Notes under the pieces: model-generated
What the model was told of the DNA's origin: nothing
Databases searched by the model: none
What the model saw: the letters and a program-made list of their open reading frames with translations, nothing else
Part shown: one piece after another, positions 11,010 through 44,152 of the stretch
How the letters are laid out: every line of letters starts with the position of its first letter
How positions within the stretch are numbered: the stretch's first letter is position 1
From: Acidobacteriota bacterium
GTDB taxonomy: Bacteria > Acidobacteriota > Vicinamibacteria > Vicinamibacterales > SCN-69-37
Direction: 5' to 3'
Length of the DNA stretch: 64,000 nucleotides
Assembly: GCA_020853395.1 (NCBI GenBank)
Contig: JADYYY010000005.1
Coordinates: 62,001-126,000 of the forward strand
Position numbers and translations under genes: made by a program

Positions 11010-11417
11010 TCACGCGCCGTCCCGGTACTCCGCGAACGAGCTGGGCGTCTCCCACACGCGGACGGCGAACACGTCCAGGCCGTGGTGACGCGCCATGTCG
11101 AAGATGAGCTTCGCGATGTGCTCGACGGTCGGGTTGCTGTCGGTCGTGAACACCGGCTCGTGCAGCGCCTGAAGCGGCTCCACGAGCGGATCGTCGTGGC
11201 GCAGGATCATCTTGTGATCGAGCTCGGCGTCGATCCAGCCTTTGACGATGCGCTTGATGTCGGAGAAGTCGGCGACCATGTTGCGGCTGTCGAGCTCGGC
11301 CGTCCGCACGTCGACTTCGACGACCGCGTTGTGCCCGTGCGGATGCTTGCAGATCCCGTCGTAGTCCAGCAGCCGATGGCCATAACAGAAGTCGATGCGC
11401 TTGGTCACCAGGTACAT
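11010..11417 (-). CDS. queD: 6-carboxytetrahydropterin synthase QueD
   Basis: 135-residue T-fold enzyme converting dihydroneopterin triphosphate to 6-carboxy-tetrahydropterin in queuosine precursor synthesis. Zinc histidines are in CYGHRLL and KHPHGHN, with the catalytic cysteine in DGICKHPHGH; WETPSSFAEY near the end carries the pterin-anchoring glutamate. The ATG at 11417 is preferred (family start MYLVTKRI); TACAGT lies 6 nt upstream of it, a possible leaderless -10 box. It is divergent from queC, which supports the pathway assignment. Confidence 0.92.
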   Translation of the reverse strand: MYLVTKRIDFCYGHRLLDYDGICKHPHGHNAVVEVDVRTAELDSRNMVADFSDIKRIVKGWIDAELDHKMILRHDDPLVEPLQALHEPVFTTDSNPTVEHIAKLIFDMARHHGLDVFAVRVWETPSSFAEYRDGA

Positions 11418-11445
11418 GTCCACACTGTAACCTAGCGCAAGGCCC

Positions 11446-12141
11446 ATGACGTCCGCCGTCCTCTTCTCGGGTGGTCTCGACAGCGCCGTGCTGCTCGCCG
11501 ACGAAGCTGCGCGCTCGGACGTCGTCTGGCCGATTCACGTGCGGACCGGCATGGCGTGGGAGCCGGCGGAAGCACGCGCCATCGAGCGTCTGCTGTCGAG
11601 CGCGCCGTTCGCCGCGCGCACGCGGCCGCTGGCGGCGCTCACGGTCGACATGCGCGAGGTCTATCCGGCAACGCACTGGGCGATCGAAGGACGCGCGCCG
11701 GCGTACGACACGCCGGACGAAGACGTCTACCTCGAGGGCCGCAACATCGTGCTGATCGCGAAGGCCGCGGTGCTCTGCGCGCGGCTGGGCGCCGGCCGCC
11801 TGGTGCTCGGTCCGCTGGCGGGGAACCCGTTTCCCGATGCGACGCCCGAGTTCTTCCGAACGATGGCGGCGGCGATGTCGCTCGGCCTCGGCCGGCCGCT
11901 CGAGATCGCGGCGCCGTTCTCGCGCCTGCACAAGGAAGACGTCGTCCGGCTCGGCGTCGAGCTGCGCGTGCCGCTCGAGCTCACGCTGTCGTGCATGCAG
12001 CCGGCCGGCGAACGTCATTGCGGCCGGTGCAGCAAGTGCCGCGAGCGGCAGGATGCGTTCCGCGTTGCCGGTGTGGCGGACCCGACCGACTACGCCGCCG
12101 TCTGGACCGGCGCGAGCCACACAGACGATCGCTCGACGTGA
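11446..12141 (+). CDS. queC: 7-cyano-7-deazaguanine synthase QueC
   Basis: 231-residue PP-loop ATPase that makes preQ0 from 7-carboxy-7-deazaguanine. The PP-loop SGGLDSAVLL is at residues 8-17; the C-terminal CMQPAGERHCGRCSKC provides the zinc cysteines. The pair queC/queD is divergently arranged with only about 28 nt between starts; queE and queF are not in the window. Queuosine for tRNA modification is the likely end product; no sign of DNA deazapurine (Dpd) genes is seen. Confidence 0.94.
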   Translation: MTSAVLFSGGLDSAVLLADEAARSDVVWPIHVRTGMAWEPAEARAIERLLSSAPFAARTRPLAALTVDMREVYPATHWAIEGRAPAYDTPDEDVYLEGRNIVLIAKAAVLCARLGAGRLVLGPLAGNPFPDATPEFFRTMAAAMSLGLGRPLEIAAPFSRLHKEDVVRLGVELRVPLELTLSCMQPAGERHCGRCSKCRERQDAFRVAGVADPTDYAAVWTGASHTDDRST

Positions 12142-18047: not shown

Positions 18048-18266
18048 ATGCTCAAAGGCTCGCGACCGGCCATCATCCATCGTATCCAGCCCGTCTCCAT
18101 TCACGGTCAGATCTCGCTCGACGTGTTCTGGATCGATCCGGAAGACCCCGAAGGGGAAATTCGGCACGCGAGGGTGGGAGCCGAAGCGGCTCCCCGCAAC
18201 ATGGAAGCCGGAGATCGCGTCACCCTCCACTACCTCATGGGCGTCGTCACGGAAATCCGGAAGTAG
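18048..18266 (+). CDS. Small beta-rich hypothetical protein
   Basis: 72 residues, no signal or membrane helix. The sequence alternates hydrophobic and polar residues (IIHRIQPVSIHGQISLDVFW ... GDRVTLHYLMGVVTEIRK), suggesting a small beta-barrel. No family recognised. It is divergent from the S41 operon with 61 nt between starts and is followed within 25 nt by a strong intrinsic terminator, which argues for a real, monocistronic gene. An AGG lies 4 nt before the ATG. Confidence 0.65.
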   Translation: MLKGSRPAIIHRIQPVSIHGQISLDVFWIDPEDPEGEIRHARVGAEAAPRNMEAGDRVTLHYLMGVVTEIRK

Positions 18267-18287
18267 AGAACGGCCGCGGCCGTACAA

Positions 18288-18315
18288 AAAAAGGCCCGCG
18301 TGAGCGGGCCTTTTT
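18288..18315. terminator. Bidirectional rho-independent terminator
   Basis: Perfect stem AAAAAGGCCCGC / GCGGGCCTTTTT with loop GTGA (18300-18303). A-tract on one side and T-tract on the other, so it can end transcription from both the small gene at 18048-18266 and the minus-strand DGQHR unit. It is the best intrinsic terminator in the window. Confidence 0.92.
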
Positions 18316-18361
18316 CGCGAACCACCTGGCTCCCCAGCTCTTCACGGCGAATGCCGCAAAT

Positions 18362-18493
18362 TCAGGTCGTCCGCTGACAACTTCTGAGAGCAATGCGCGT
18401 GCCGTGTTCGAAGCCATGGTTCTCGAAGAGCCAGCGCGACAGCGGAGACCGATGAGCATCCCGCATGCTCACAAAGAGCACGCCGGTGCTCAT
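18362..18493 (-). CDS. Micro-ORF, SymE/AbrB-like fragment
   Basis: 43 codons starting at the ATG at 18493, 7 nt after the stop of the DGQHR gene, with GAGG placed 5 nt before the start. The centre reads SPLSRWLFENHGFEHGTRIAL. It resembles the RWL-x4-GF-x2-G core of SymE-type (AbrB-fold) proteins, but the product is much shorter than usual SymE. It may be a coupled small gene or a truncated remnant. The terminator at 18288-18315 lies directly behind it. The assignment is by motif only. Confidence 0.45.
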   Translation of the reverse strand: MSTGVLFVSMRDAHRSPLSRWLFENHGFEHGTRIALRSCQRTT

Positions 18494-18500
18494 CTCGGCC

Positions 18501-19622
18501 TCAGATCGCGCCTTCGGGGTACTGCAGGGCGAGCCTGAGCTCCTTGGCGAGCTGGTCCACGGTCGTCCGTTTCCAGGCGCCGTCGGTTTCGAATCGCAGG
18601 TCGCCGATGCGCCGGCCCCACGGCGCGATGACGCGACCGATCGCGCGAAAATCGGCGCGGTCCGCGCGCTGCTGGTCGAGGTGGCGCACGATGTCCGGCG
18701 CGACGCGGATGAAGGCCTTCAACGCGGGCGCGCTCTTGATGCTGTACTTGCGGCCGTGCCAGGCGGCATTGAAGACGACCGAGACCTGCTTGAAGTAGTT
18801 GACGAAGAACCGGCGGGCCTCCTCGCGGAACTCGTCCCCTTTCCGGCCGCCGCCGAACGCGCCGCCGACGAACAGCTTCTTCAGCTCCTGCGCCAGGGGC
18901 GCCTGGCCCACGCGGCCGCGCCCCACGCCGAGCAGCTTGATGTCGTGGTAGAGCGGCGACTCCTCGCGCTCGTTCAGCGCGCGCACCACGTCGTGCGCCG
19001 CCGCGAGGTTCTCGTCGCGATAGAGCTGGCGGCCCGAGAGCGACACGAGGTGCGAGGCATTGAGCCGCGTGTGCTTGGCGTTGATCGTCACGAACATCTG
19101 GACGAGGTGGTCTTCAGGGAGCCGATCGAAGATCACGGCAGGCACGGTGAAGGTCTCGCCGTCGAAGCGTTCCAGCCCGGCGTGGAGCGCCAACAACCGG
19201 TGCTGCCCATCGATCGCGCGCAAGATGCCCTCGCGCTCGGGGACCTTGAGCGTGCCGAGCGCGTCCTGCCCCGGCAGCGGCTCGAACTTCAGCACCTCGT
19301 CGCAGGAGATGATGACGGCTCCCGGAATCGACGGCAGGTCCTGCGCCTGCCGGCACTGCTCGTAGTACTCGATGAGCTCGTCGATCTTGCGGCGGATGAT
19401 CTGACGCTGGTACGCCTTCTCGCTCGAGGCAATCCGTCGTTCCAGCAGATCCCAGTGGACCTTCGACGACCGGCGGCTGCCGCGGATGGCCACCCCGCTC
19501 CCCTGATCGCCGTAGCTCAGCACTTCGAACCTGACCAGCTTGTCGATGTCCTTGGCCGTCAACGAGGCCTGGTAGAACTGCACGCCAAACTGCTGCATCC
19601 GGAGCGCGGCGACGCTGATCAT
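18501..19622 (-). CDS. DGQHR-domain protein (DndB-like)
   Basis: 373 residues of the DGQHR/DndB family. The signature is AIDGQHRLLALHAG, with the downstream MFVTINAKHTRLNASHLVSL typical of the fold, which is related to ParB/DNA sulfur modification regulator DndB. DndB controls phosphorothioation genes in Dnd systems, and solitary DGQHR proteins occur in mobile or defence settings. No dndA/C/D/E, pbe or restriction gene is visible here. The ATG at 19622 has AAGGA about 13 nt upstream and a promoter at 19679-19708. The role is unknown. Confidence 0.82.
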   Translation of the reverse strand: MISVAALRMQQFGVQFYQASLTAKDIDKLVRFEVLSYGDQGSGVAIRGSRRSSKVHWDLLERRIASSEKAYQRQIIRRKIDELIEYYEQCRQAQDLPSIPGAVIISCDEVLKFEPLPGQDALGTLKVPEREGILRAIDGQHRLLALHAGLERFDGETFTVPAVIFDRLPEDHLVQMFVTINAKHTRLNASHLVSLSGRQLYRDENLAAAHDVVRALNEREESPLYHDIKLLGVGRGRVGQAPLAQELKKLFVGGAFGGGRKGDEFREEARRFFVNYFKQVSVVFNAAWHGRKYSIKSAPALKAFIRVAPDIVRHLDQQRADRADFRAIGRVIAPWGRRIGDLRFETDGAWKRTTVDQLAKELRLALQYPEGAI

Positions 19623-19678
19623 AAGCAGCCGGAATCCTTTCGTGGTCTGGAAGAACGGCCGAGGGGCGGCGTTCGGGG

Positions 19679-19708
19679 ATTGTAAGGGCCGGACGCGCGC
19701 AATCTCAA
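19679..19708 (-). promoter_or_regulatory. Promoter of the DGQHR gene
   Basis: TTGAGA (-35, 19703-19708), 18-nt spacer, TACAAT (-10, 19679-19684) on the minus strand. It predicts a leader of about 50 nt. This gene therefore has its own transcription unit. Confidence 0.55.
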
Positions 19709-44077: not shown

Positions 44078-44152
44078 TGGTACCGGTACGGGGATTCGAA
44101 CCCCGGTCCCGTGGCTGAGAACCACGTGTCCTGACCCCTAGACGATACCGGC
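44078..44152 (-). tRNA. tRNA-Glu (CTC anticodon)
   Basis: 75 nt including an encoded CCA. The 5' acceptor arm is GCCGGTA and the 3' acceptor arm is TACCGGT, then A and CCA. D arm GTC/GAC, anticodon stem CGTGG/CCACG with loop TTCTCAG (anticodon CTC), T arm CGGGG-TTCGAAT-CCCCG. The first pair is G1-U72, a wobble. Reads codon GAG, the main Glu codon in GC-rich genomes. Confidence 0.95.

Follow-up and report, generated by a model that had tools for sequence, protein, structure and literature searches.

What follows the stop codon of a DGQHR-domain gene in a 64,000-nt stretch of a Vicinamibacterales genome (the window): a small toxin gene, or something else? The first-pass annotation had proposed a DGQHR/DndB-like gene coupled to a SymE-like micro-ORF, together perhaps a minimal or relict defence regulator. 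Our analysis upholds part of this interpretation, namely a DGQHR/DndB-like gene with a small conserved neighbour, but neither the SymE-like peptide nor the relict defence role. The features on which the argument rests are as follows.

18049-18266, plus strand: small convergent gene of 72 aa, kept near the RNA in some relatives and facing the RNA terminator
18286-18316, minus strand: intrinsic terminator of the RNA, a 13-bp stem and U-run seen in the fold, facing the convergent plus-strand gene
18378-18286, minus strand: predicted small structured RNA of about 93 nt (model match, promoter, covariation and fold)
18317-18374, minus strand: predicted three-way junction (alignments, covariation and fold)
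18403-18389, minus strand: sigma-54-type -24/-12 promoter, GGCACGCGCATTGCT (GG-N10-GC)
18362-18493, minus strand: 43-codon ORF, judged not to be a gene (no family match, no conservation, start in a hairpin)
18447-18500, minus strand: 54-nt hairpin directly behind the DGQHR stop (fold -36.1 kcal/mol, z -6.0)
18501-19622, minus strand: DGQHR-domain protein gene, 373 aa, ATG start (ORF translation with TIGR03187 and Pfam DndB matches)
19708-19679, minus strand: sigma-70-like promoter of the DGQHR gene, TTGAGA-18-TACAAT (consensus scan)

The DGQHR gene is as the first-pass annotation described it. Its product matched TIGR03187 with 128.8 bits (E 3e-37; curated cut-off 58.85), which places it in the DGQHR domain family, and matched Pfam DndB (PF14072) with 55.8 bits (E 5e-15; gathering cut-off 29.1) over residues 5-200 only. 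The DGQHR pentapeptide was invariant across 21 aligned proteins. The promoter claimed for the gene is promoter-like, with 10 of 12 consensus positions matched; shuffled sequence gave a mean of 0.1. At the equivalog level no membership was found, the protein scoring 50.2 bits against TIGR04172 (phosphorothioation-associated DGQHR protein 1; cut-off 450) and 52.9 bits against the DpdB profile NF041060 (cut-off 300). DndB is described as controlling the dnd genes by binding promoter DNA (PMC4507180). DndC (TIGR03183) had no match in the source genome, in agreement with the claim that no modification enzyme is present, and PADLOC, applied to ten chosen proteins between 11446 and 27221, found no defence cluster. 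Its matches among those ten were the DpdB/DndB similarity of the DGQHR protein itself, a QueC-like protein and two weak ones; the QueC-like protein, about 6 kb from DGQHR, was the sole 7-deazaguanine-pathway member. The QueC-like gene (PADLOC QueC, E 1e-20) lies within 11010-12141, about 6-7 kb from DGQHR, and is adjoined there by a gene that by eye appears QueD-like. DpdB of 7-deazaguanine DNA modification is likewise a DGQHR protein. A structure predicted from ten sequences was of low quality (mean pLDDT 47), and no conclusion was drawn from it.

The DGQHR gene is widely retained. Among the 162 genomes examined from the order, 109 have a match, representing 67 of 86 genera, mostly as a single copy and at 75-87% identity. 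Only partial matches were present in three genomes (G041, G447 and G437), while G458 has an extra copy at 34% identity and G481 has two copies. The dN/dS of the window gene against 12 members of the order was 0.12-0.23; the value of 0.58 against a 52% relative (L219) is unreliable at that distance. In one relative (L013) the DGQHR protein is 83% identical to that of the window, and the neighbouring genes are less conserved, at 55% and 51%. Outside the order, DGQHR relatives occurred in seven sampled genomes, two at 51-52% and five at 31-38% identity. Purifying selection across the order at this level of identity argues that the gene is no relict, and the proposal of a minimal or relict defence regulator is not borne out. 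By its sequence it is a conserved, core-like gene. Its product is a non-relict member of the DGQHR family and is ParB/Srx-like by the literature, PMC4619093 relating the DGQHR domain to ParB/Srx-fold proteins.

The 43-codon ORF is present where it was claimed to be: it begins 7 nt past the DGQHR stop and spells RWLFENHGFEHG. Frames of this size are common, since a 9-kb section here is overlapped by 78 ORFs of 30 aa or more. The Shine-Dalgarno sequence attributed to it proved to be only GGCCGAG, buried together with the ATG in the 54-nt hairpin, where the A of the start codon sits in a two-base bulge and the U and G are paired. This very stable hairpin lies between the DGQHR gene and the sigma-54 promoter and is possibly the end of the DGQHR transcript. 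Searches of the micro-ORF against Pfam and NCBIfam at E up to 10 returned no SymE/AbrB or other naming family, the single Pfam listing being a Xin repeat at chance level (E 0.16), and PDB sequences gave no naming match at E up to 10. A likeness of the ORF start to low-molecular-weight phosphatases, noticed by eye, was discarded because neither profiles nor PDB sequences supported it. When the translations behind DGQHR were read in 29 relatives, no comparable ORF was seen (one of them, L015, offered 9 nt only), and a tblastn search of 40 DGQHR loci, partly from the same genomes, yielded only chance-level matches, the best of which (E 0.024) was upstream of DGQHR in L002. The ORF is therefore not conserved, an outcome that the first-pass annotation itself had said would speak against its proposal.

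It now seems hardly credible that these 43 codons are translated into a SymE-like toxin coupled to DGQHR. The frame is open, lies close behind DGQHR and shares with SymE, an AbrB-fold toxin, the short motif RWL-x4-GF-x2-G only. The globular domain of SymE comprises about 60 residues (PMC1891008), so that 43 codons are too short to hold one, and the micro-ORF differs further in having no family match and no conservation. Its third-position G+C of 0.72 is somewhat high, but most of the genes predicted here reach 0.8-0.96 (the gene caller being biased towards high values). A similar string, GFEGGTRLAL, occurs at the same place in a relative of the same family (L007), but in an 18-codon frame that has no RWL half, and the portion in common is that relative's own sigma-54 promoter. 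The start codon within a hairpin of -36 kcal/mol and the missing ORF behind DGQHR in relatives also count against a toxin gene. We suggest instead that the ORF is a by-product of the sequence running from the DGQHR stop to the sigma-54 promoter, plus the first bases of an RNA. Thus, of what the first-pass annotation observed, the gene, the ORF, the promoter and the terminator stand, and the Shine-Dalgarno sequence and the SymE-like ORF as a gene do not. What it overlooked is that the ORF contains a sigma-54-type promoter and the start of a predicted structured RNA gene; by sequence, the partner of DGQHR would be this RNA gene.

The -24 GG of GGCACGCGCATTGCT falls in the codon for the last G of the RWL-x4-GF-x2-G motif. 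The RNA start at 18378 was deduced from the -12 spacing, and the core matched by our covariance model R1 spans 18314-18373. The predicted RNA, terminator included, folds with -52.3 kcal/mol (z -6.0). Its three-way junction consists of P1 (18374-18363 with 18328-18317), P2 (18360-18341) and P3 (18338-18329). P3 reads GCU-GGGG-AGC in the window and is joined directly to P1; across the family GCU-G(4-6)-AGC is nearly invariant. The hairpin and U-run at 18316-18286 agree with the terminator claimed to close the unit; they were seen in the fold, and a consensus scanner listed none. The convergent 72-aa gene beyond it has no Pfam family and is matched at 43-51% identity over all or part of its length in L002, L007, L013 and L018 (L116 and L142, which also match, appear to be the same genomes as L007 and L018). 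Placed side by side, the regions downstream of DGQHR have in common a GG-N10-GC element with TTGCT, then a GCGGC..GCCGT hairpin and GCTGGGGAGCC, and then a further hairpin. Of the first 30 DGQHR loci, 16 have this conserved element, some on the strand of DGQHR and some on the opposite one.

The proposed structure was assessed by covariation. R1 was built from 16 elements with the promoter left out, and in this training set 10 of 23 pairs had changes on both sides; that pair count was reached by 36 of 500 shuffles, the covariation score by none of 500. An independent set comprised 25 RNAs (24 distinct) that came from genome searches, were absent from the model and were aligned by MAFFT without it. 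Here 15 of 21 pairs had compensatory changes and 97.8% of cells were paired, and none of 500 shuffles and none of six slid versions came near, although the selection leans towards structure because these RNAs were found with a structure-bearing model. The 25-RNA alignment is a better test than an alternative alignment that includes training rows and an antisense duplicate (L037, minus strand).

For the promoter, a matrix derived from the 16 training elements was applied to 27 RNA matches, one from the training set (L033) and 26 others with loci. An element of at least 8 bits was found 11-17 nt before the RNA in 26 of the 27, compared to 0.9% of 4814 control windows, and in 25 of 26 when L033 was excluded; the one poor score, 4.3 bits, was at L059. 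RpoN was detected in 57 of 60 relatives, a count that includes the source genome (E 2e-134). Two of the three genomes lacking a match, perhaps because they are drafts, bear the RNA (G055 and G058). The 3' end is more variable. A T-run stands behind the 3' hairpin in 13 of the 27 matches, is missing within 70 nt in 11 (families f4, f7 and f14) and precedes the hairpin in L186, L189 and L191; where it is missing behind the hairpin, the RNA may run on. No activator site common to the RNA promoters was found; one dyad, CGCC-N5-GGCG, was present in 11 of 40, and 30 rounds of shuffling gave at most 8. Pairing of P3 with the start region of dgqhr was no better than with its coding sequence (mean z +0.45, 21 loci).

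Comparison with Rfam 15 at gathering cut-offs showed no family that fits the element in the window or in 17 further loci from relatives and second copies (one of these, L034, was also seen as L032). The only matches over cut-off were tRNAs outside the element (window position 44081, and L228). The nearest match in relatives was RsmY in L013, at 25.5 bits against a gathering cut-off of 57 (E 0.024). A match to Burkholderia ncS011 was rejected: at 31 bits it is below the gathering cut-off of 48, and it covers the shared terminator, on the plus strand. Three R1 matches (L035, L036 and L229) were also set aside as likely chance or coding matches; the weak one at L229 resembles coding sequence and has no promoter.

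The RNA appears to belong to one order. With R1 at E 0.01 it was found in 34 of 60 relatives, and at E 1e-4 in 29 of 396 genomes of the phylum, these being 29 of the 42 genomes from the order and none of the 354 others. A second model, R2, applied at E 0.01 to 162 genomes of the order, detected it in 99, which cover 60 of 86 genera; among the 100 better genomes it was found in 67. Both models are free of the promoter, and the 0 of 354 across the phylum rests on a stricter threshold than the 99 of 162. A pattern scan of a genome collection returned at least 120 stretches, 80 of them with printed titles; because the promoter is part of the pattern, these records cannot serve to test it. Among the matches listed, R1 recognised at least 20 of the 80 titled stretches strongly (E 2.5e-7 or lower) and one weakly (L102, E 0.004), and at least 10 of the 40 untitled ones at E 5.6e-5 or lower; the rest were taken as chance. 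Titles of the strong matches listed named Acidobacteria, Vicinamibacteria or Vicinamibacterales in 17 of 20 cases. The exceptions among them were two records of Ca. Sulfopaludibacter (L073 and L145), which NCBI puts in a different order of the phylum, and one of Acidimicrobiia (L097). In each, pxpA is present along with a whole or partial DGQHR match of 77-79% identity, and their taxon labels are therefore probably wrong. Collectively, the covariation, promoter and distribution suggest a sigma-54-driven structured RNA family that is most likely new, is unmatched in Rfam and is confined to the order in these samples.

More than one copy can be present per genome. The source genome has a second, diverged copy (L034; contig C2, 287114-287177) with promoter and terminator, and similar second copies, likewise with promoter and terminator, occur in two relatives (L227 and L228). 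By eye, the L034 copy lies upstream of an apparent sugar isomerase/epimerase-like gene. At L062 (G028, contig C1, 940500-940891) a tandem pair of RNAs, each with a sigma-54-type promoter, is upstream of pxpA.

If the stretch behind DGQHR encodes an RNA, with what does it act? One proposal is that the DGQHR protein and the RNA form a two-part module, for example a ribonucleoprotein or a protein inhibited by the RNA. In 78 of the 81 genomes having both, the RNA lies downstream of DGQHR at no more than 5 kb and may point either way; the distance is under 500 nt on the opposite strand in 41, under 500 nt on the same strand in 22 and 0.5-5 kb on the same strand in a further 15, and in the remaining three genomes the two are on different contigs. 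This linkage holds despite orientations that are mixed within families f1 and f2 (all are opposite in f15 and all the same in f6). The two also tend to occur in the same genomes (odds ratio 5.6, p 1e-6, kinship uncorrected), 81 genomes having both, 18 the RNA only, 28 DGQHR only and 35 neither. At one locus that the standard search scored as having no RNA (L027), a diverged copy occupies the expected position (24 bits, E 0.0035). Each of the two DGQHR genes of G481 has an RNA beside it, the two pairs being on separate contigs, as a duplication or a mixed bin would give. Against the module stand the 18 and 28 genomes with one partner only, as well as two DGQHR genes from outside the order (L219 and L220, 51-52% identity), beside which no RNA was seen (best E 0.21). 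Other neighbours are partly syntenic too, such as an HGSNAT-like gene near DGQHR in 8 of 40 loci, so some of the linkage may reflect gene order that was inherited. That a ParB/Srx-like DGQHR protein and a dedicated sigma-54-driven three-way-junction RNA make up one module, with a housekeeping rather than a defence role, we regard as unlikely. We know of no RNA partner of the DGQHR/DndB family described earlier; if the module were real, this RNA would be the first, and the role would be in housekeeping and not in defence.

About as improbable is that the RNA serves pxpA, the gene of 5-oxoprolinase subunit A, as a cis-acting leader of the riboswitch or attenuator kind; the sigma-54 promoter and 3' hairpin would then control pxpA, and the other copies would be displaced remnants. 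Among 40 RNA-bearing genomes, 19 have pxpA in the sequence retrieved around the RNA, mostly with 1.5 kb flanks, and in 12 of the 19 the gene follows the RNA on the same strand. A three-way junction with a hairpin behind it resembles a riboswitch, 14 of the 27 matches have no U-run behind the 3' hairpin, and sigma-54 often drives nitrogen genes. Yet in the other 7 of the 19 pxpA converges on the RNA, diverges from it or lies upstream. No pxpA was seen in the loci retrieved for families f1 and f15, and none is matched in the source genome, which nonetheless has two RNA copies. An RNA of the RsmY/CsrB type that sequesters CsrA/RsmA is less probable still. P3 contains GGGGA, the P2 loop of some members contains AGGGA, and there is the single weak RsmY match in L013. 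In the 60 relatives the RNA was found in 14 of 17 genomes with CsrA and in 20 of 43 others (odds ratio 5.4, p 0.02, kinship uncorrected); CsrA is patchy in the order and commoner in RNA-bearing genomes, with a match in 14 of 34 carriers and 3 of 26 non-carriers. CsrA does not seem to be needed, because 20 of the 34 carriers have no match to it, and the GGA in the P2 loop is not conserved, being absent from the window copy.

The reading we favour, with a probability of roughly 0.76, is that the stretch behind DGQHR is a separate gene for a predicted sigma-54-dependent small regulatory RNA acting in trans. Occurrence beside DGQHR in either orientation, in genomes with no DGQHR match and in a source genome with no pxpA suggests that the RNA is a unit of its own for which neither gene is required. 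The sequence supports its structure, promoter, distribution and linkage to DGQHR; that it is transcribed, with the ends given here, and acts in trans we infer as most likely. Sigma-54 and an enhancer-binding protein would switch the gene on, the promoter being read from the sequence and its activation presumed. The RNA of about 93 nt would fold into the three-way junction, exposing the nearly invariant, G-rich P3, and would end at its own terminator in this genome. Through P3 it would then probably act in trans on mRNAs or a protein. Because of sigma-54 and pxpA, nitrogen or glutamate status can be guessed at as the signal.

In the open-access literature searched, which was available in part, no sigma-54-dependent small RNA was found for Vicinamibacterales. 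The element described here is a structured RNA family, defined by covariation, promoter and distribution and with no Rfam match, that offers a testable entry to sigma-54 control in this order and to the role of an order-wide DGQHR protein outside DNA modification. It also illustrates that a promoter and a structured RNA can together mimic a conserved-looking micro-ORF.

How does this locus compare with known systems? The window protein resembles the DGQHR/DndB/DpdB proteins (TIGR03187, PF14072) in its DGQHR motif and in a domain above both broad cut-offs. It differs in that its genome lacks DndC, in that it scores far under the TIGR04172 and DpdB cut-offs, and in that a gene of its type is retained over an order. 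The RNA has a GGA-containing hairpin, as RsmY and CsrB do, and a relative gave the weak RsmY match; unlike them, it has one nearly invariant hairpin only, and most carriers have no CsrA match. Qrr and GlmY are sigma-54-dependent bacterial small RNAs. The predicted RNA is like them in its -24/-12 promoter, its short length, its intrinsic terminator (in this genome) and its paralogous copies per genome, and it differs from them in belonging to another phylum and in a three-way junction that corresponds to no Rfam 15 family at cut-off.
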